In this document: piece by piece, positions 1,370-9,189 of the stretch
How positions within the stretch are numbered: position 1 is the stretch's first letter
Layout: the number at the start of each line of letters is the position of its first letter
From: Candidatus Gastranaerophilales bacterium
GTDB lineage: Bacteria; Cyanobacteriota; Vampirovibrionia; Gastranaerophilales; Gastranaerophilaceae
NCBI GenBank assembly: GCA_944325825.1
Contig: CALVBP010000011.1
Location: 1-58,997 of the forward strand
DNA length: 58,997 bases
Reading direction: 5' to 3'
Notes under the pieces: generated by a model
Told to the model about the DNA's origin: nothing
Databases searched by the model: none
The model's input: the letters and a program-made list of their open reading frames with translations, nothing else
Translations under genes and position numbers: made by a program

Positions 1370-3052
1370 TTATTTGTTTACAGCTTTGCCTATGCCAAGA
1401 CCTACAAGCCCGAGAGCGGCTGCAGCGATAGCTGCGTTAACCCATTTATTTGGTCCTTTAATCTTACCTAAGTCCTTTTCAATAGCTTCTTGAGCGGATT
1501 TTTTAACTTTTGCAAGATATTCTTCTTTGCTTCCCAATCCCTTTTCTTTTAGGATTTTTAATAGTTCGTCGTCAGTAAGTTCTTTTGCTGAGAGACCTAT
1601 TTTTTTAGCTTCTTCTTCAGCGGCAGTTTTGGCTGCTTCAAGTTTGGATTTAACGCTTGATTTTTCAAGAGCGGCTTTAGCTGCATCTTCAATTTCTGCT
1701 GCACTCATTGCACTACCGGTTGTTGAAGATTTCGGCATTGCCTCTTTTAAGGTTTTATTTTTGTTTACAAATCCTAGCAAATTACCGCGTTCTTTTCTTG
1801 TTGCGTTTTCAACTTCCTGTTTAGTAGCCTGCTCTAATTCCTGAGCTCTAGAAAGCTGTTTAAAGAAGCTTTTTTTGCTGGCTATAAATTCAGCATTGGC
1901 TTTTTCTTTCTTCTCCGCAAAGCCTTTTAGGATATTGATTTGATTTCTCAAGTTATCATTTTTCTTAACTGCAGGATCGTCTAGTAATTTTTTATATTCT
2001 TCTACCGTTAATAATTGCTTGTGATTAGTGAATGGTGTTGTTGTGATACTACCACTCTTATCAATTACCATTAAATCAGTTTTACCTTTGCTGGCTCGCT
2101 GTTTAATTTTATCACTAATTTCCTTAGATAAATCATTAAGCGCATTATTTGCTTCATTGTAGCTATTTCTGTATCCATTTGCATTAGTAAATACTTTACA
2201 AGTTTTTTTGCCTACTTTTACATCTTTGATGTCGCCCAAAATTTCTTTTGCCAGGGCTCTTCTAGATTTATCTAATTGTTTTTGGTATTCAGTTTGGTAA
2301 TGTCTTTGGGATTTATATCCTTTTTCTTTCCAATCAGAAAAGTCGGTAATTTCTTCAATGATATTATTATCTTTAATAATTTTAACCAGCCCATCTATAT
2401 CGTTATTTCCATGATGTTTACCACTTGCCGTTTTCTGACGTAAAGTTTCAAGATAGGTATTAACCTGTTTTTCAAAATCTGTTAGAGTTTTTTTGTTTTT
2501 AGAATTTTTTTCAGCCTTTGCTAGAGCTTTTTGGTATGCATCATATCTTGTTGTATATTCGGTCTGCATTGTTGTATTTTCAAATACGCCGGCTTTAAGA
2601 GCTTCATCAGGTGTTAGAAATCCTGTAGGAGAAGATGCTGCTTTGCGGTTAGCTAATTTTGTCTTTTCAGCCTCAAGGGCTTTTGCATAATTTTCTTCAG
2701 CTGTTTTTAAATTTTTAGCAGCTTCGTTGTCGGCAGGTAGTTGACCTACGGCAGATTTACTTTCTTCTCTAATTTTAGCAACCTGTGATTCGTATTCTTT
2801 TTCTGCATTCTGAACTGCATTCGCATGAGATTTTGCAGTTTCCCAGAAACCTTTGTTATCTCCGCCTTTGCTAATTTCTCTATTAAAAGTATCTTCAGAC
2901 TCTTTTAAAATATCTTCGTAAGAAGAATATTTAGGTTTAGTAACTCCGACCGGAGAGAAAGCTCCTGCCAAGCCTCCGACGACAGCTCCTCCTAATGCAT
3001 ATGGAGTTGCTGAACCTTGTTTTTGCTGTTGAATCGCTAATTCATCTGACAT
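1370..3052 (-). CDS. Coiled-coil protein with hydrophobic ends, family A1 (560 aa)
   Basis: No known function recognised. The N-terminus MSDELAIQQQK leads into a Gly/Ala-rich hydrophobic stretch (about residues 18-35, PYALGGAVVGGLAGAF). About 480 residues of highly charged Lys/Glu/Ala helix, predicted coiled coil, follow. The C-terminus ends in one hydrophobic segment (VNAAIAAAALGLVGLGIG) and a short basic tail. Both hydrophobic ends could anchor a rod in a membrane. The ATG at 3052 has an AGGAG site 9 bp upstream. It is a diverged paralogue of the gene at 3882, which faces away from it across a serine recombinase gene. A phage-like structural or surface role is possible but unproven. Confidence 0.75.
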   Translation of the reverse strand: MSDELAIQQQKQGSATPYALGGAVVGGLAGAFSPVGVTKPKYSSYEDILKESEDTFNREISKGGDNKGFWETAKSHANAVQNAEKEYESQVAKIREESKSAVGQLPADNEAAKNLKTAEENYAKALEAEKTKLANRKAASSPTGFLTPDEALKAGVFENTTMQTEYTTRYDAYQKALAKAEKNSKNKKTLTDFEKQVNTYLETLRQKTASGKHHGNNDIDGLVKIIKDNNIIEEITDFSDWKEKGYKSQRHYQTEYQKQLDKSRRALAKEILGDIKDVKVGKKTCKVFTNANGYRNSYNEANNALNDLSKEISDKIKQRASKGKTDLMVIDKSGSITTTPFTNHKQLLTVEEYKKLLDDPAVKKNDNLRNQINILKGFAEKKEKANAEFIASKKSFFKQLSRAQELEQATKQEVENATRKERGNLLGFVNKNKTLKEAMPKSSTTGSAMSAAEIEDAAKAALEKSSVKSKLEAAKTAAEEEAKKIGLSAKELTDDELLKILKEKGLGSKEEYLAKVKKSAQEAIEKDLGKIKGPNKWVNAAIAAAALGLVGLGIGKAVNK

Positions 3053-3064
3053 AATTAATCGCTC
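3038..3064 (-). repeat. 27-bp inverted repeat, left copy (candidate recombination site)
   Basis: Identical to 3870-3896 on the opposite strand for all 27 bases. It covers GAG of the Shine-Dalgarno sequence, the spacer GCGATTAATT and codons 1-5 of the 560-aa gene. Identity stops sharply on both sides. It includes a partial dyad TTAATT...AATTA. Confidence 0.7.
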
Positions 3065-3246
3065 CTATATTTACTTAACTTAAATTGTACCTTTTCCACT
3101 TACGTTTATATATATGTTAACGTTTAAGCATTTAAAAAATTGCTACTTTAAAAAACTTGAATTTTACGAGCATTGCTAAAACTATTATATTTACTGAATC
3201 TTGGCGGTAAAACTTTTATTTACATATCTTTACAAAAGGAGGTTAT

Positions 3247-3849
3247 ATGACAGTATTTGGTTACATACGTGTAAGTACAGATAAACAAACAACGGAAAAT
3301 CAGCGCTTTGAAATCATGCGCTTTGCAAACTCTAATTCAATAGTAATTGATAAGTGGGTTGAGGAAAGTATTTCAGCAGCTTGTGATTTAAAAAAAAGAA
3401 AATTGTGGACATTAATGAAAAAATTAAAAAAGGGAGACCTTATAATAACATCCGAAATATCCCGTCTTGGGAGGAATTTACTACAGGTAATGAGTATTCT
3501 TAATTTTTGTTTAAATAACGACACCCGTATTTGGACAGTTAAGGATAGATTTCGTCTAGGAGATGATATTCAGTCAAAAGTTTTAGCATTTGCCTTCGGT
3601 TTATCTGCAGAAATCGAAAGGAAGCTAATATCCCAAAGGACTAAAGAAGCATTATTAAGAAAAAAAGCAGAGGGTGTAATATTAGGACGACCTATAGGTC
3701 GTAAAAGCAAAGTATTAAAATTAAGTATACATGAGAAAAAAATCAAAAAGTTTCTGGCGGAAAATATGTCAAAAACTCTAATTGCAAAGAAATTAGGGGT
3801 CCATCGTTCAACTGTTTCAAACTACATAAAACGTTATTTTGCTGACTAA
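3247..3849 (+). CDS. Serine site-specific recombinase, small DNA-invertase/resolvase type (200 aa)
   Basis: Cuts and rejoins DNA at paired short sites through a serine nucleophile. Residues 1-140 form the catalytic domain: the motif GYIRVSTDKQ contains Ser10, SRLGRN lies near residue 78, and FAFGLSAEIERKLISQRTKE carries the E-helix arginines. Residues about 160-197 are a Hin-type helix-turn-helix (KTLIAKKLGVHRSTVSNYIK). Length matches Hin/Gin/Mpi-type enzymes, and the wording IWTVKDRFRLGDDIQSKVLAFAFGLS resembles the Bacteroides Mpi invertase group as I recall it. It has a full AAAGGAGG site 4-6 bp before the ATG. It sits between two divergent paralogues whose 5' ends form an inverted repeat, so inversion of its own locus is the natural hypothesis. 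Resolution or transposon excision is less likely because no transposase is near. Confidence 0.92.
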   Translation: MTVFGYIRVSTDKQTTENQRFEIMRFANSNSIVIDKWVEESISAACDLKKRKLWTLMKKLKKGDLIITSEISRLGRNLLQVMSILNFCLNNDTRIWTVKDRFRLGDDIQSKVLAFAFGLSAEIERKLISQRTKEALLRKKAEGVILGRPIGRKSKVLKLSIHEKKIKKFLAENMSKTLIAKKLGVHRSTVSNYIKRYFAD

Positions 3850-3869
3850 AATTTATGATGAAATTAAAT

Positions 3870-3896
3870 GAGCGATTAATTATGTCAGATGAATTA
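3870..3896 (+). repeat. 27-bp inverted repeat, right copy (candidate recombination site)
   Basis: Mirror copy of 3038-3064, spanning the region just before the 609-aa gene and its first five codons. Here the bases before the block make ATGAG instead of AGGAG, so the right-hand gene presently has a much weaker ribosome-binding site than the left-hand one. Confidence 0.7.
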
Positions 3897-5711
3897 AGCA
3901 TTCAACAACAGAAATCAGGCACCCCTTATCTGCTGGGCGGTTCCGTTATCGGAGGTCTTGCGGGCTACGGATTAGGAGCGCATGGTCCCAAATTGGCATC
4001 GTCACCTGCTAAGTACAAATCTTATGAAGATTTGATTCAGGAAAAGCAGGATGATTTTGTAAAATCTACGGAAAATGTCAGCGAAGATTTAAAAACAACG
4101 GCTGAAAAAATGAGAAATGATGTTACTGAAGCCAGAAAAACTTATGAAGCTGACTTGCATAAATATATAGGTGAAAATACTAAAGAATTACCTGCTGATG
4201 ATGAGCTTGTGAAGAAAATGCAGGAAGCTGAAAAAGCTCTAAATACAAAACGTGAGCAGCTTATTAACCTAGAAGCTGATAAACTAAGAAAAGCTCAGCC
4301 TGCTGCTGCAGATGCTCCAAAACCGGTGTTATCAGAAAGAGCGGCAGATGCTGCTGAAAAAGTAAAAAAAGAAATTACAGCGGAAACCAAAAGATTAGAA
4401 ACAATAACTAAAAGTTTAAATGATGCTTCTAAAGCTGCTGCTGATGATTTATACAAGGCTTTGGATAATTTAGAAACTCTCAAAGCATCAAAAGCGCCAA
4501 GCGCTGATATCAAAGCTGCACAAGCTGAAATTACAAAAATGGAAAAAGCCCTAAATGAAGCAATCACAAAAGTGGTTGATGGATATGATTTTTCAGGTAC
4601 AAAAAGCGAAGTTAAGAAAGCAAAGGCTGCAAAAGTTAAAGAAATCAGATCCTATATAGATGATATTATTGCAGAACGCACACATAACGAATCTGTACAT
4701 AAAGTAAACATAGCCGGTTTGGCTGATTCCAGAAAGAAAGCTTTGGAAAATCTGGACTCTGTATTAGGAAAAGATTTTTCTAAAGCATATACAACAAACA
4801 AAGAACAGTTCGGAAAACAGCTTGAAAGAAATATTAAAGCAGAAAATATGAGATTGAATAAGTTAAACGAATTCAAAGCTCTATATGAAAAGGCTGTTAA
4901 AGAAACAGGCAATAAGACAAAAGTTATTGAAGAAGTTAAATCCTTGTTCGGTCTGGTAACTAAAACAACAAAAACTACCGAAGTAACAAGCATCTTTGAT
5001 GAATTTGCAAAATCTTTAACTGAGTCACAAGCAGATGATTTCTTGAGATTAGTAGGCGGTGATTTGGATGACAAAGCTATTACCGATGCTATCAACAAGT
5101 CAAAAGATAAAATAAAAGTTATGGAAACATCTTCTCAGGAACTTAACAGAGTTGCTGCAGAAATTCAAAAACTCGGAGGTGAAGGCGCCTATATCAATAA
5201 AGGGGTTTTATACAGCAAGACCGGTAAGAAAGTTGAATTTACAACAAATCAAATTCAGTTAACATCCGGTGAGCTATCAGTTCCAAAATCCAAAAAACTG
5301 TCAGCACTTGAAAAACAGTTAGCAAAGATTGAAGGCGGTGCAAAACCGGCAGCGGCAGCAGATAATGCCGTTAGATTAACAGAAGAACAAATTCTTGAAA
5401 AAGCAAGGACAAACGTAACAGACGATATGGTCAAAGCAGAAAAAGAAGCTCTTGAGGCAGCTAAAAAAGCAGTGGAAGAAAAGGCTGCAACTCTTTCTCC
5501 AAAATCAAGAGAACAATTAACAAAAGAATTTGTTGAAAAGAACGGTACTGTGGATGATGCTATAAAGAAAGCTGCAGAAAAATATAAAGATGATTTGAAA
5601 AAATTATACGAAGGCAAGATTAACAATAAAAAACTGGCTGCAATAATCGCCGGGGGGATTGTCGCAGGTCTTGCAGTCGGCGCTCTTATTAAACCAAAAC
5701 ATAATGCTTAA
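3882..5711 (+). CDS. Coiled-coil protein with hydrophobic ends, family A2 (609 aa)
   Basis: Paralogue of the 560-aa protein. It has the same N-terminus pattern MSDELSIQQQK, a Gly-rich hydrophobic stretch (PYLLGGSVIGGLAGYGLG), about 540 residues of Ala/Lys/Glu-rich coiled coil, and a C-terminal hydrophobic helix (LAAIIAGGIVAGLAVGALI) with a basic tail. The start at 3882 is chosen by homology with the paralogue; an upstream in-frame ATG at 3855 would add nine residues. Its ribosome site is poor (ATGAG), and it lies only 32 bp after the recombinase stop, so at present it may be translated weakly from recombinase read-through. Function unknown. Confidence 0.75.
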   Translation: MSDELSIQQQKSGTPYLLGGSVIGGLAGYGLGAHGPKLASSPAKYKSYEDLIQEKQDDFVKSTENVSEDLKTTAEKMRNDVTEARKTYEADLHKYIGENTKELPADDELVKKMQEAEKALNTKREQLINLEADKLRKAQPAAADAPKPVLSERAADAAEKVKKEITAETKRLETITKSLNDASKAAADDLYKALDNLETLKASKAPSADIKAAQAEITKMEKALNEAITKVVDGYDFSGTKSEVKKAKAAKVKEIRSYIDDIIAERTHNESVHKVNIAGLADSRKKALENLDSVLGKDFSKAYTTNKEQFGKQLERNIKAENMRLNKLNEFKALYEKAVKETGNKTKVIEEVKSLFGLVTKTTKTTEVTSIFDEFAKSLTESQADDFLRLVGGDLDDKAITDAINKSKDKIKVMETSSQELNRVAAEIQKLGGEGAYINKGVLYSKTGKKVEFTTNQIQLTSGELSVPKSKKLSALEKQLAKIEGGAKPAAAADNAVRLTEEQILEKARTNVTDDMVKAEKEALEAAKKAVEEKAATLSPKSREQLTKEFVEKNGTVDDAIKKAAEKYKDDLKKLYEGKINNKKLAAIIAGGIVAGLAVGALIKPKHNA

Positions 5712-5729
5712 ATCATTGATTAATAACTC

Positions 5730-5767
5730 AAAAGTTCCGAGATTTATTAAAATTTCGGAACTTTTTT
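5730..5767 (+). terminator. Rho-independent terminator
   Basis: Stem AAGTTCCGA / TCGGAACTT followed by TTTTTT, 19 bp after the 609-aa gene. Confidence 0.85.
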
Positions 5768-6150
5768 GTTATGCATTAAGGATGACCGGGGGTAAATAAA
5801 TTAGCTTCCCTCCCCGAGCAGGGGAGGGCTGGGGAGCAATTAGCGACTGGTGAATAGTGAATAGTTAATAAGTGAATAATGATTAGATGATTACTATTTT
5901 TTTGTCACCCTGAACTTGATTCAGGGTCTTACCAAAGCAGCGTTATACTTGGTTTCCGGTAAGATCCCGAAATAAGTTCGGGATGACAGTTATATTGTTG
6001 TCACACTGGATTTATTTCCACTATTGTTTTAAATAAATTATTCTGTCATGCTGAACTCGTTTCAGCATCTTACAAACTTAGAGTTAAACTCATAGCTGGT
6101 AAGATCCCGAACCAAGTTCGGGATGACATTTTCGTTTATTATCGATTAAA
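5768..6150. repeat. Palindromic intergenic repeats
   Basis: No gene seen. The stretch contains the CACCCTGAACTTG...CAGGGTCT palindrome (about 5907-5932), two GTAAGATCCCGAA...TTCGGGATGACA palindromes (about 5960-5990 and 6101-6128), and a related TCATGCTGAACTCG...CAGCATCTT palindrome (about 6046-6071). All are short imperfect hairpins that recur in this window. Confidence 0.65.
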
Positions 6151-6310
6151 CATTGATAGATTCCGGCTCGGGGCCGGAATGACAGAAAAATACGTCATTC
6201 TGAGGCGATAGCCGAAGAATCGCAATAACTGGGAGTTTCTTCTACCGTTAAACCTTGCGATGTTTCGCTTCGCTCAACATGACGGGAGTGCGATAGCCGA
6301 AGAATCGCAA
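6151..6310 (+). repeat. Dispersed 160-bp repeat, copy 2
   Basis: Nearly identical to 1091-1250 and 8917-9075 and in the same orientation. Copies 1 and 2 bracket the recombinase-paralogue locus as direct repeats. Confidence 0.85.
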
Positions 6311-6382
6311 GGTTATGGAGCCCTTGCGGGTAAGCACCCTTCCCAATCTTCCCTCACAAGGAAAGGATTTTAACACCCTGAA

Positions 6383-7423
6383 TTATTTTTTTGTGATATA
6401 TTTTTCAGCGGCTTTATACCCTGCTTCAATTGTCTTGTTAGTTACGCCAGGATGCGCTTCTTTATAAGCAACATATGCTTCTCTTAGCTTTGATGCATGC
6501 TTATTTATACTATCTTGGTTACCTGATTTAATTGCTTCTTGAAGTTTTTTTAATTCACTGGTAAAGCTTTTTGTTTCGTCATTAGTAAGCTCTTCTATAG
6601 CATCTCTGCCTTCAGCTTTTTTAAGCTGTTTTTTAAGTGCTGTGAGGTTATCTAATGACTGCTGAAGAGTTTTAACTACTTCTGTTTTAGCCTCTTTGAT
6701 TTCATTTTCTAATTTGGTTTTTTTAGCTTGTAAACTATTACACTCAGCTTCTTTGGTAGTTTTTTCCCCATCTAAAGTTGCAATATTAGTATTAAGTGTA
6801 TTTATGGATTCTTGCAATTTTTTTATTTTATTAGTTAAACTCTCAATCTCATTCTGAATAGATAATTGTGCACTATCAGGGAATTGATTCGGTTTAGCTT
6901 GCATAGAGATTTGCTGGCTCATTAATGTGCTTAATTTTTGAGAATATTCTGCCAGACTTGTTTGTGCATCGCGTAATGAACTTCTTGCTGTGGATAAGTT
7001 ACTGTTTATACTATTTAATTCAGTATTTTTAGTTTCTAGTTCTTCCGTTTTTCCTTTCAACTCATTTTGCTTATTAGTAATATCGGGATAAGAGTCAAAA
7101 TTACCGCTTTGAGCTAACTGTAATCTGAGCTGAACTTCAGAAATATCCGTACATTCGACCTTTTTCAGCTCTGTCTTAATATCAGCCTGAATTGATTCAG
7201 CAAGCGCAGAAGAATCTTCGCCGTCATCAACAGGTTCTGAATCATACATATTTCCAAATTTATTGAGCGCTGTTCCAAAAATTGATGTGGCAAAATTTAC
7301 TCCCAGAATTGCCCACGGATTATGAACTTCATGTCCTCCTCCATGTTGCAGAGTGTAGGCAGCTCTCATTTGTTTGTTATAATTTGCTACTTCTCTAAAG
7401 CTTCCGTCTGATATTGCGCCCAT
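6383..7423 (-). CDS. Orphan coiled-coil protein (346 aa)
   Basis: Function not recognised. Residues 1-65 hold a Gly/His/Asn-rich head with one mildly hydrophobic stretch (WAILGVNFATSIFGTALNKF). Residues about 75-270 are a long coiled coil with heptad-like Leu/Ile spacing, and residues 270-346 form a helical tail ending AAEKYITKK. There is no signal peptide. Layout (small glycine-rich head, long coiled coil, helical tail) matches the gene upstream at 7534-8517. The start at 7423 lies 22 bp after the shared promoter core at 7446-7464 and has only a weak AAGAAAG site. Confidence 0.7.
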   Translation of the reverse strand: MGAISDGSFREVANYNKQMRAAYTLQHGGGHEVHNPWAILGVNFATSIFGTALNKFGNMYDSEPVDDGEDSSALAESIQADIKTELKKVECTDISEVQLRLQLAQSGNFDSYPDITNKQNELKGKTEELETKNTELNSINSNLSTARSSLRDAQTSLAEYSQKLSTLMSQQISMQAKPNQFPDSAQLSIQNEIESLTNKIKKLQESINTLNTNIATLDGEKTTKEAECNSLQAKKTKLENEIKEAKTEVVKTLQQSLDNLTALKKQLKKAEGRDAIEELTNDETKSFTSELKKLQEAIKSGNQDSINKHASKLREAYVAYKEAHPGVTNKTIEAGYKAAEKYITKK

Positions 7424-7445
7424 AATTCTGTCTTTCTTCTTATAT

Positions 7446-7509
7446 CTTACATATATATAAAGTCAATAAAAAAAGTCCGATTTCAGGTTCGGACTTTTTT
7501 GTTACAAAT
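7446..7509 (-). promoter_or_regulatory. Shared orphan-gene promoter, copy C
   Basis: Read on the minus strand: dyad ATTTGTAACAAAA (7497-7509), hexamer TGAAAT inside a terminator stem, and core GACTTTATATATATGTAAG (7446-7464). The offset between dyad and core is 51 bp, identical to copies A and B. It drives the 346-aa gene. Confidence 0.7.
7468..7500 (-). terminator. Rho-independent terminator of the 327-aa gene
   Basis: Stem AAAGTCCGA / TCGGACTTT with a T-run on the minus strand. It sits inside the promoter of the next gene, between the dyad and the core. Confidence 0.85.
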
Positions 7510-7533
7510 GTTAATATTTAATTATTTTTCTTT

Positions 7534-8517
7534 TTATTCGCACATTAACTTATATGCTGCTCTGATGTTATTGCTTTTTACGCTGCTGTCAAGATTGGTG
7601 TCATTATAGATTTTCTTCATGACCTTAGCCCATTTTTCTTTTGTTTCGGCATTTTCACTTGTTCTATACTGACTTATTATATATCTTAAGTCGCTCTTAC
7701 TTACATTTGATGCATCAAAACCAGCCTTATAGTCATTATTTTCAATATCATATAACTTAGCAAATTCTTCTGTTGTTGTTCGGGTTAATTTAACACCGTC
7801 TGCCTTATCTAAAACTGCTTCATTCAACTGAGCCTGAATAGCATCCCGTTCTGCCCTAAGAGCTTCTAACTCCTCTTCGCAAGCCTTAATTTTTTCTGCA
7901 AGGGCTTCTATCTTAGGTTTATTTGTGTTAATGATTGCTTCTTGCTCGGCTATTTCTTTTTCTTTTGCTTCTCTGGCTGCTACAGCCTTGTTATATTCTT
8001 CTACAGCTTTATTATAAGCTGCTTGCAAGCTTGCTCTATCATCATCTGTTGCCTTTTGCCAGTTATCGTATGCAGCATCTTTTGCATCCTCAGCCTTTGT
8101 TTCGTCAGTTTTTAAACTCTCTAATTCGCTCGTATATCTCTGAACGTTAGATTCAGCTGTTTCATTTGCTGTTTCAAGCTCTGTTTTCTCATTGACATAA
8201 CCCTGCTTTTCGGTTTCTATGTCGTGTATTTGTGCATCAAGATTATCGACATTGGCAGAAAGTGTTTTCTTTGAATTATCTTGAGCATTTGCACAAACTT
8301 TGCCCAACATCAAGCCTCCAATATTCATAAGAACTTGCCCGACACCAAATCCGGCCATAGCATTATAGTTATATGAGCCGTCGCAATTAGTAAAAATGGA
8401 AGAACCGAACATGTTACCGAACATGTTGATGCCGCCCATGTTGAACATACCCATGTTGCCGAAGCTCATAGTGTTAATACCGTACATATTCATATTGTTT
8501 AAACCGTAGCTGAACAT
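7534..8517 (-). CDS. Orphan Met/Gly/Asn-rich coiled-coil protein (327 aa)
   Basis: Function not recognised. The first 45 residues are strikingly rich in Met, Gly, Asn and Phe (NMYGINTMSFGNMGMFNMGG). A hydrophobic patch (AMAGFGVGQVLMNIGGLMLG) follows, then about 170 residues of Glu/Lys/Ala coiled coil and a C-terminal helical domain of about 80 residues. The start at 8517 has GGAAG 8 bp upstream; an ATG at 8532 is also possible but would sit almost on the predicted transcript start. It shares promoter type and layout with the 346-aa gene. Confidence 0.7.
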   Translation of the reverse strand: MFSYGLNNMNMYGINTMSFGNMGMFNMGGINMFGNMFGSSIFTNCDGSYNYNAMAGFGVGQVLMNIGGLMLGKVCANAQDNSKKTLSANVDNLDAQIHDIETEKQGYVNEKTELETANETAESNVQRYTSELESLKTDETKAEDAKDAAYDNWQKATDDDRASLQAAYNKAVEEYNKAVAAREAKEKEIAEQEAIINTNKPKIEALAEKIKACEEELEALRAERDAIQAQLNEAVLDKADGVKLTRTTTEEFAKLYDIENNDYKAGFDASNVSKSDLRYIISQYRTSENAETKEKWAKVMKKIYNDTNLDSSVKSNNIRAAYKLMCE

Positions 8518-8541
8518 CTTAATATCTTCCATCGTTGTTTT

Positions 8542-8605
8542 CTTACATATATATAAAGTATATAAGAAATTCCTGATTTCAAAGAGGATTTATTTTGTTA
8601 CAAAA
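8542..8605 (-). promoter_or_regulatory. Shared orphan-gene promoter, copy A
   Basis: Minus strand: dyad TTTTGTAACAAAA (8593-8605), hexamer TGAAAT, then core TACTTTATATATATGTAAG (8542-8560). The core ends 24 bp before the chosen start of the 327-aa gene. Confidence 0.75.
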
Positions 8606-8631
8606 CTTAATATTCATTTTGTGAGCAGGAT

Positions 8632-8660
8632 TTGACAAACGGGTTTGGGCTTGATATATT
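8632..8660 (+). promoter_or_regulatory. Promoter of tRNA-Leu
   Basis: TTGACA (8632-8637), 17-bp spacer, TATATT (8655-8660). The tRNA begins 25 bp further on. Confidence 0.75.
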
Positions 8661-8685
8661 AACGAATATTGCTGCAAAAAGCTTT

Positions 8686-8766
8686 GGGCGAGTGGCGAAA
8701 TTGGTAGACGCACTAGACTTAGGATCTAGCGCCTATGGTGTAAGAGTTCGAGTCTCTTCTCGCCCA
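8686..8766 (+). tRNA. tRNA-Leu (anticodon TAG)
   Basis: Acceptor GGGCGAG pairs with CTCGCCC. The anticodon stem CTAGA/TCTAG encloses loop CTTAGGA with TAG at 8720-8722. There is a long variable arm of class II type, T-arm GTTCGAGTC and discriminator A. CCA is not encoded. Confidence 0.95.
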
Positions 8767-8916
8767 ATTATTTTTTCTTTACTAAAAAGAAAAAGTAATC
8801 AAAAAGAAAAGAATCACCAATCGGCAGACATTGATGCCCTCCCCCCTATCATTTTTACATTTCAGGTCTGCCTCATCAGTAAAACTACCAGAATGACGAG
8901 AACTCTCAATGCGAAG
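8767..8916. other. Intergenic stretch without a gene
   Basis: A/G-rich tract after tRNA-Leu with an imperfect AAAAAGAAAA hairpin near 8770-8810. Nothing else seen before the third 160-bp repeat. Confidence 0.5.
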
Positions 8917-9075
8917 CATTAATAGATTCCGGCTCGGAGGCCGGAATGACAGAAAAATACGTCATTCTGAGGCGATAGCCGAAGAATCGCAATAACTGGG
9001 AGTTTCTTCTACCGTTAAACCTTGCGATGTTTCGCTTCGCTCAACATGACGGGAGTGCATTAGCCGAAAAATCGT
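8917..9075 (+). repeat. Dispersed 160-bp repeat, copy 3
   Basis: Same orientation and almost the same sequence as copies 1 and 2; its end is slightly decayed (AGCCGAAAAATCG). Confidence 0.85.
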
Positions 9076-9128
9076 AATAATTGAAAGTCTCTATTGTTAA
9101 ACCTTGCATACTACGTCCTTATCTTTTA

Positions 9129-9158
9129 TTGCATACACAGAATATTACATGATATAAT
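9129..9158 (+). promoter_or_regulatory. Sigma-70-type promoter of the first pilin-like gene
   Basis: TTGCAT (9129-9134), 18-bp spacer, TATAAT (9153-9158). Confidence 0.7.
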
Positions 9159-9189
9159 TTATTAGTGTTAGATTTTAAGAGGTGTTTAT

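Follow-up and report, generated by a model that had tools for sequence, protein, structure and literature searches.

A Putative Mpi-Family Inversion Switch Between Two Divergent Members of a Hypervariable Gene Family in Gastranaerophilales

In a 58,997-nt stretch of a Candidatus Gastranaerophilales genome (contig CALVBP010000011.1, hereafter the window), the flipping of a 0.8-kb segment probably decides which of two divergent paralogues is made. Judged from the sequence, the best explanation of the locus is quite likely an either/or phase-variation switch operated by the Mpi-family serine invertase that the segment encloses. The switch is favored by a single family promoter between the two genes, by a site motif of the invertase family that is accompanied by a shared dyad center, by the constraint on the invertase, and by the joint decay of the invertase and one paralogue in a sister species (G004).

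Organization of the Locus

In the list of open reading frames, two long genes diverge from positions 3052 (left) and 3882 (right), with a 200-aa recombinase between them. A preliminary description of this DNA had given the two long genes as 560 and 609 aa and had placed a serine invertase resembling Mpi between inverted blocks of 27 identical bp at the 5′ ends of the paralogues; both statements were confirmed, and the invertase is an intact member of the Mpi family. The features are as follows.

1370..3052, minus strand: left paralogue, 560 aa, member of a hypervariable coiled-coil family, promoter-linked in the assembled orientation
3038..3064, minus strand: left arm, a 27-nt block over the Shine-Dalgarno edge, the spacer, and the first five codons
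3050..3075, minus strand: proposed left 26-bp recombination site, AGTAAATATAGG-AG-CGATTAATTATG, core AG at 3063-3062 (placed by its dyad center, as in family sites)
3175..3212, minus strand: family promoter element, TTTACC-16-TATAAT at 3211-3184 (conservation among orthologues; hexamers)
3247..3849, plus strand: Mpi-family serine invertase, 200 aa (NF009949, Pfam Resolvase, structures, dN/dS)
3859..3884, plus strand: proposed right 26-bp recombination site, TGAAATTAAATG-AG-CGATTAATTATG, core AG at 3871-3872 (placed by GAGC[GC][ATG]TT near the stop codon and by its dyad center)
3870..3896, plus strand: right arm, an inverted copy of the 27-nt block
3882..5711, plus strand: right paralogue, 609 aa from the ATG at 3882, with no family promoter of its own and a weak Shine-Dalgarno sequence, ATGAG

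Dispersed intergenic repeats of about 84-137 nt, 75-95% alike, are found around the locus (1091-1174, 6150-6233, and 8917-9000).

Promoter, Translation Signals, and the Proposed Inversion

In 24 of the 27 testable orthologues, a 38-nt element with TTTACC-16-TATAAT precedes the start codon by 156-288 nt, with a score above that of every shuffle. Between the two window genes it occurs in a single copy, inside the segment at 3175-3212 and aimed left. The left genes of the window and of G004 have the element; upstream of the two right genes it is absent. It is taken as a promoter because it is conserved among orthologues and not on the strength of a sigma-70 scan, which when used alone returned no more promoters than shuffled sequences and was rejected as evidence. 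The Shine-Dalgarno sequences also differ, with TAGGAG (-6.5 kcal/mol) before the left gene versus ATGAG (-1.9 kcal/mol) before the right. From these signals we infer that in the assembled orientation the left gene is ON and the right gene is OFF or low.

Under the proposed mechanism, the enclosed invertase would recombine two inverted sites of about 26 bp, centered on the AG of GAGC and lying at the translation starts of the two paralogues. The segment bears the sole family promoter; in the assembled orientation this promoter and TAGGAG feed the left gene, and the right gene would get only possible read-through from the invertase plus the weak ATGAG. Inversion would swap the inner half-sites, giving the promoter and TAGGAG to the right gene and the 3′ flank of the invertase to the left gene. 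When the segment was inverted in silico at the AG cores, the leaders swapped exactly, with AAATATAGGAGCGATTAATTATG now at the right gene and AAATTAAATGAGCGATTAATTATG at the left, in agreement with the earlier expectation that promoter and good ribosome site would pass from one paralogue to the other. The junction between promoter and right gene in a flipped segment would read AAATATAGGAGCGATTAATTATGTCAGATGAATTAAGC. The enzyme is predicted to act on these arms, both orientations to coexist, and expression to alternate.

The short distance between the invertase stop and the right-gene start (32 nt, with no terminator) is also what would be seen if the right gene were the second gene of an invertase operon, both proteins being made together and the invertase having a different role. 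An alternative in-frame ATG at 3855, just past the stop codon, would extend the right protein to 618 aa and fits such an operon. This arrangement is nevertheless improbable given the weak Shine-Dalgarno sequence of the right gene and the state of the locus in G004, where the right-gene frame was lost along with the invertase and the extension from 3855 is missing, being ended by ATGAAATTATAG.

An Intact and Constrained Invertase

The recombinase matches the NCBIfam "master DNA invertase Mpi family" (NF009949) with 298.7 bits over residues 3-196, above the cut-off of 272 bits, and it also matches Pfam Resolvase. In a comparison with resolvase/invertase structures, its alignment to gamma-delta resolvase takes in the RVST and RLGR motifs. 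The label "Mpi-like" in the preliminary description therefore holds for family membership; in contrast to the master Mpi of Bacteroides, only two copies of the block are present in the genome. The reading frame is intact and enclosed by the inverted arms. Relative to the 85%-identical orthologue in G038, dN is 0.081 and dS is 1.57, values which indicate that the invertase is under strong purifying selection.

Descent from type IIG-linked invertases was considered and rejected: the tree sets the window lineage apart, with weak deeper support. In its closest relatives other than orthologues, L080 and L082, the core is a different one, CGACCG, which weighs against the switch proposed here. Searches of viral contigs, plasmids, and phages for copies of the locus returned none, only distant matches to the invertase. 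In nine loci (L080, L090, L094, L095, L097, L109, L111, L129, and L150), the contig ends within about 110 nt of an Mpi-family invertase; such ends are as expected from assembly breaks at mixed orientations or repeated arms.

The Inverted Block and Its Orthologue Control

The block GAGCGATTAATTATGTCAGATGAATTA is found at both gene starts, inverted, at 3038-3064 (minus strand) and 3870-3896 (plus strand), matching at 27/27 positions, far above chance. It sits within a longer inverted repeat of 58 nt with 83% complementarity, and downstream of it the left and right genes are 51% identical over 270 aligned nt. The preliminary description had made this identity its main argument, with the reservation that the block should not be equally conserved where no recombinase is nearby. 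Equal conservation is what was found. The starts of single-copy orthologues match the block at 18-25 of 27 positions, and orthologue pairs from sister genomes with no adjacent invertase (such as G052/G028, G012/G045, and G047/G042) are identical at all 27 positions and 51-57% identical downstream; for G052/G028, neighborhoods of 10 kb and 4 kb contain no invertase. Identity of this degree is thus to be expected from the homology of two gene starts. Because orthologues lacking an adjacent recombinase match equally well, the identity is by itself no evidence of a recombination site, and it was ruled out as an argument for the switch. The caution applies to any inverted identity at gene starts, which may be ordinary homology and for which orthologues without a recombinase are the control.

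The same control lends weight to a simpler explanation, in which the inverted repeat is just the conserved 5′ ends of homologous genes pointing apart and the invertase is locked or uses other sites. Also compatible with it are the orientation of G004, which is that of the window, and the retention of an intact invertase in G038, where there is no second gene. We consider this explanation fairly unlikely on four grounds. The right gene is intact and constrained despite having no family promoter. The invertase is constrained as well. Further copies of GAGCGATTAATTATGTCAGATGAATTA, which the preliminary description had proposed to look for, are lacking beyond the two arms when up to 3 mismatches are allowed across the whole assembly (1.85 Mb, 57 contigs). 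Finally, the right arm carries the motif that adjoins invertase stop codons in the family, and its upstream half is unlike that of all orthologues, with AAATGAG in place of TATAGGAG. A degenerate form of the site matched the right arm and one other place.

The Candidate Recombination Sites

The argument for a switch at these arms draws on the sites of related invertases. Among the 76 Mpi-family homologues with enough sequence past the invertase stop, 18 have GAGC[GC][ATG]TT within -6 to +34 nt of that stop, versus 0.31 expected. At ten loci an exact inverted repeat of 18-300 nt has the motif at its edge. These loci (L081, L099, L100, L106, L115, L118, L130, L146, L152, and L153) are spread over Bacteroidota, Verrucomicrobiota, and Melainabacteria, with L081 and L106 being the two from Melainabacteria/Gastranaerophilales. 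The repeat of L106 encloses a TaqI_C specificity domain beside an Eco57I methylase; the alternative specificity domains inside it belong to a type IIG restriction-modification enzyme.

In the window, the right arm reads AAATGAGCGATTAATT 20 nt past the invertase stop and carries the GAGC[GC][ATG]TT motif, and the left arm is without the T that precedes GAGCG in most family sites. Mean dyad symmetry over the family sites peaks at the AG of GAGC, the position expected for the core of a Hin-type enzyme. In each window arm this same center gives the best dyad or ties for it, the dyads being modest (7/12 and 6/12 matches, with background P of 0.02 and 0.08). The weight of the site evidence lies in position and agreement, since each test alone is modest. 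Scanning the 59-kb window with a motif matrix was too unspecific when used alone; such a scan would miss the sites.

The Locus in Related Genomes

A comparison of orientation among relatives, suggested in the preliminary description, covered one genome per species and yielded a single informative case, the sister species G004, which has the layout and orientation of the window together with a dead invertase. The G004 invertase has lost its ATG and is frameshifted, and the right gene is broken by an internal deletion and frameshifts; the left gene is open. Joint loss of the invertase and the gene that would depend on it, with survival of the promoter-linked gene, is what the switch model predicts, here in one case from a draft assembly.

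In G038 the invertase is intact and the right gene is absent. The invertase of this genome is followed by AAATGAGCCTTTTTGGCTCTTTTT (L035 8840-8900), which is both site-like and terminator-like. The G038 locus is possibly an ON/OFF version of the switch. G010 has the left gene, preceded by the same stretch of about 180 bp, and no invertase; a short stretch resembling the invertase 3′ end weakly suggests that the invertase was lost there.

The block g6383-g7534-tRNA-Leu (window 5711-9179) is inverted relative to G038 (L035) and G010 (L062), and the right gene stands at the breakpoint of this inversion, beside the invertase. A larger inversion spanning the right gene, g6383, g7534, and tRNA-Leu could accordingly be the real event, with the invertase perhaps using a distant partner site. 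The gene orders agree with it: left-invertase-right-g6383-g7534-tRNA-Leu in the window, left-invertase-tRNA-Leu-g7534-g6383 in G038, and left-tRNA-Leu-g7534-g6383 in G010. One breakpoint falls 20 nt past the invertase stop. Yet inspection of the far breakpoint (8771-9179) by eye revealed no matching site, and the dispersed repeats near 6150 and 8917 could have caused the rearrangement by homologous recombination, so that we regard this event as very improbable as the explanation of the locus.

The Paralogue Family

Of the 65 genomes of the genus, 48 carry the family to which the left and right genes belong, nearly always as one copy. Its members share a conserved N-terminus and a hydrophobic helix at the C-terminus, with a hypervariable region between; in the alignment of the window paralogues with the genus orthologues (A2), the ends are constant and the middle is extremely variable (229-726 aa). 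The right gene is intact, with constraint like that on the left gene (dN/dS about 0.27 and 0.28). The paralogues had been described as surface proteins, a label that found no support: the window paralogues have a glycine-rich N-terminus and the C-terminal hydrophobic helix, and no signal peptide is evident. They match no family significantly in Pfam, NCBIfam, PADLOC, or PHROGs. AlphaFold models the right protein as a helical coiled-coil (pLDDT 76, pTM 0.43), which has no significant fold match.

Comparison With Known Inversion Systems

Inversion switches with enclosed serine invertases are already known. In Salmonella, Hin controls one operon directly and the other phase via a repressor. The Hin/fljBA system has an invertible segment of about 1 kb that encodes the serine invertase acting on it and contains a promoter pointing outward, a layout shared by the candidate segment of the window, and the Hin-like features found in the window are the intact invertase inside and inverted putative sites at the ends. 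The window differs from Hin in that the segment is flanked by two homologous genes, the putative sites fall inside ribosome-binding sites, and the invertase is of another subfamily. The hix sites of Hin are 26 bp long, with crossover at the central core (PMC4513852). Mpi of Bacteroides fragilis belongs to the same family, NF009949, and acts by promoter inversion; it inverts 13 distant regions (PMC4747536). In contrast to these many dispersed sites, the window has two block copies only, both local.

In Campylobacter fetus, the sapA system likewise has one promoter on an invertible segment, and the homologous genes on either side of it have conserved 5′ ends in common. The sapA segment is larger, RecA-dependent, and without an enclosed serine invertase. 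Two features of the window would be unusual: the overlap of the site with the ribosome-binding sites of both target genes, and the alternation of one promoter between two paralogues from a hypervariable family.

We can offer a wider reading only tentatively, namely that in Gastranaerophilales an Mpi-family invertase adopted as its recombination site the start of translation in a hypervariable family of membrane coiled-coil proteins. The outcome would be either/or in the window species and possibly ON/OFF in G038 (site-like AAATGAGCCTTTTTGG after the invertase, no second gene), with decay in G004 and loss in G010. A partial literature search found no paper that joins Gastranaerophilales and phase variation. 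If the proposal is true, this uncultured gut order has a phase-variation switch, selection for cell-to-cell variation acts on the hypervariable coiled-coil family, and the site of the paralogue family is linked to the sites of restriction-specificity switches.

Type IIG specificity modules (L081, L106, L118, and others) share with the window a homologous invertase and a GAGCG-type site beside its stop codon. Their segment consists of alternative target-recognition domains with the invertase outside, whereas the window segment consists of promoter and invertase, and the genes flanking it, which gave no significant Pfam or PADLOC match, show no sign of an Eco57I-type methylase with an invertible target-recognition domain. 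A 65% homologue of the invertase in the same genus (G022, L037 5210-8270) lies beside two convergent genes that we take, from their sequence, to be HsdS-like. Its arms are 67-nt exact inverted repeats that begin at ACGACCG, and a third copy of the core follows the invertase stop; the design is that of the GAGCG-type loci, but with the core CGACCG.
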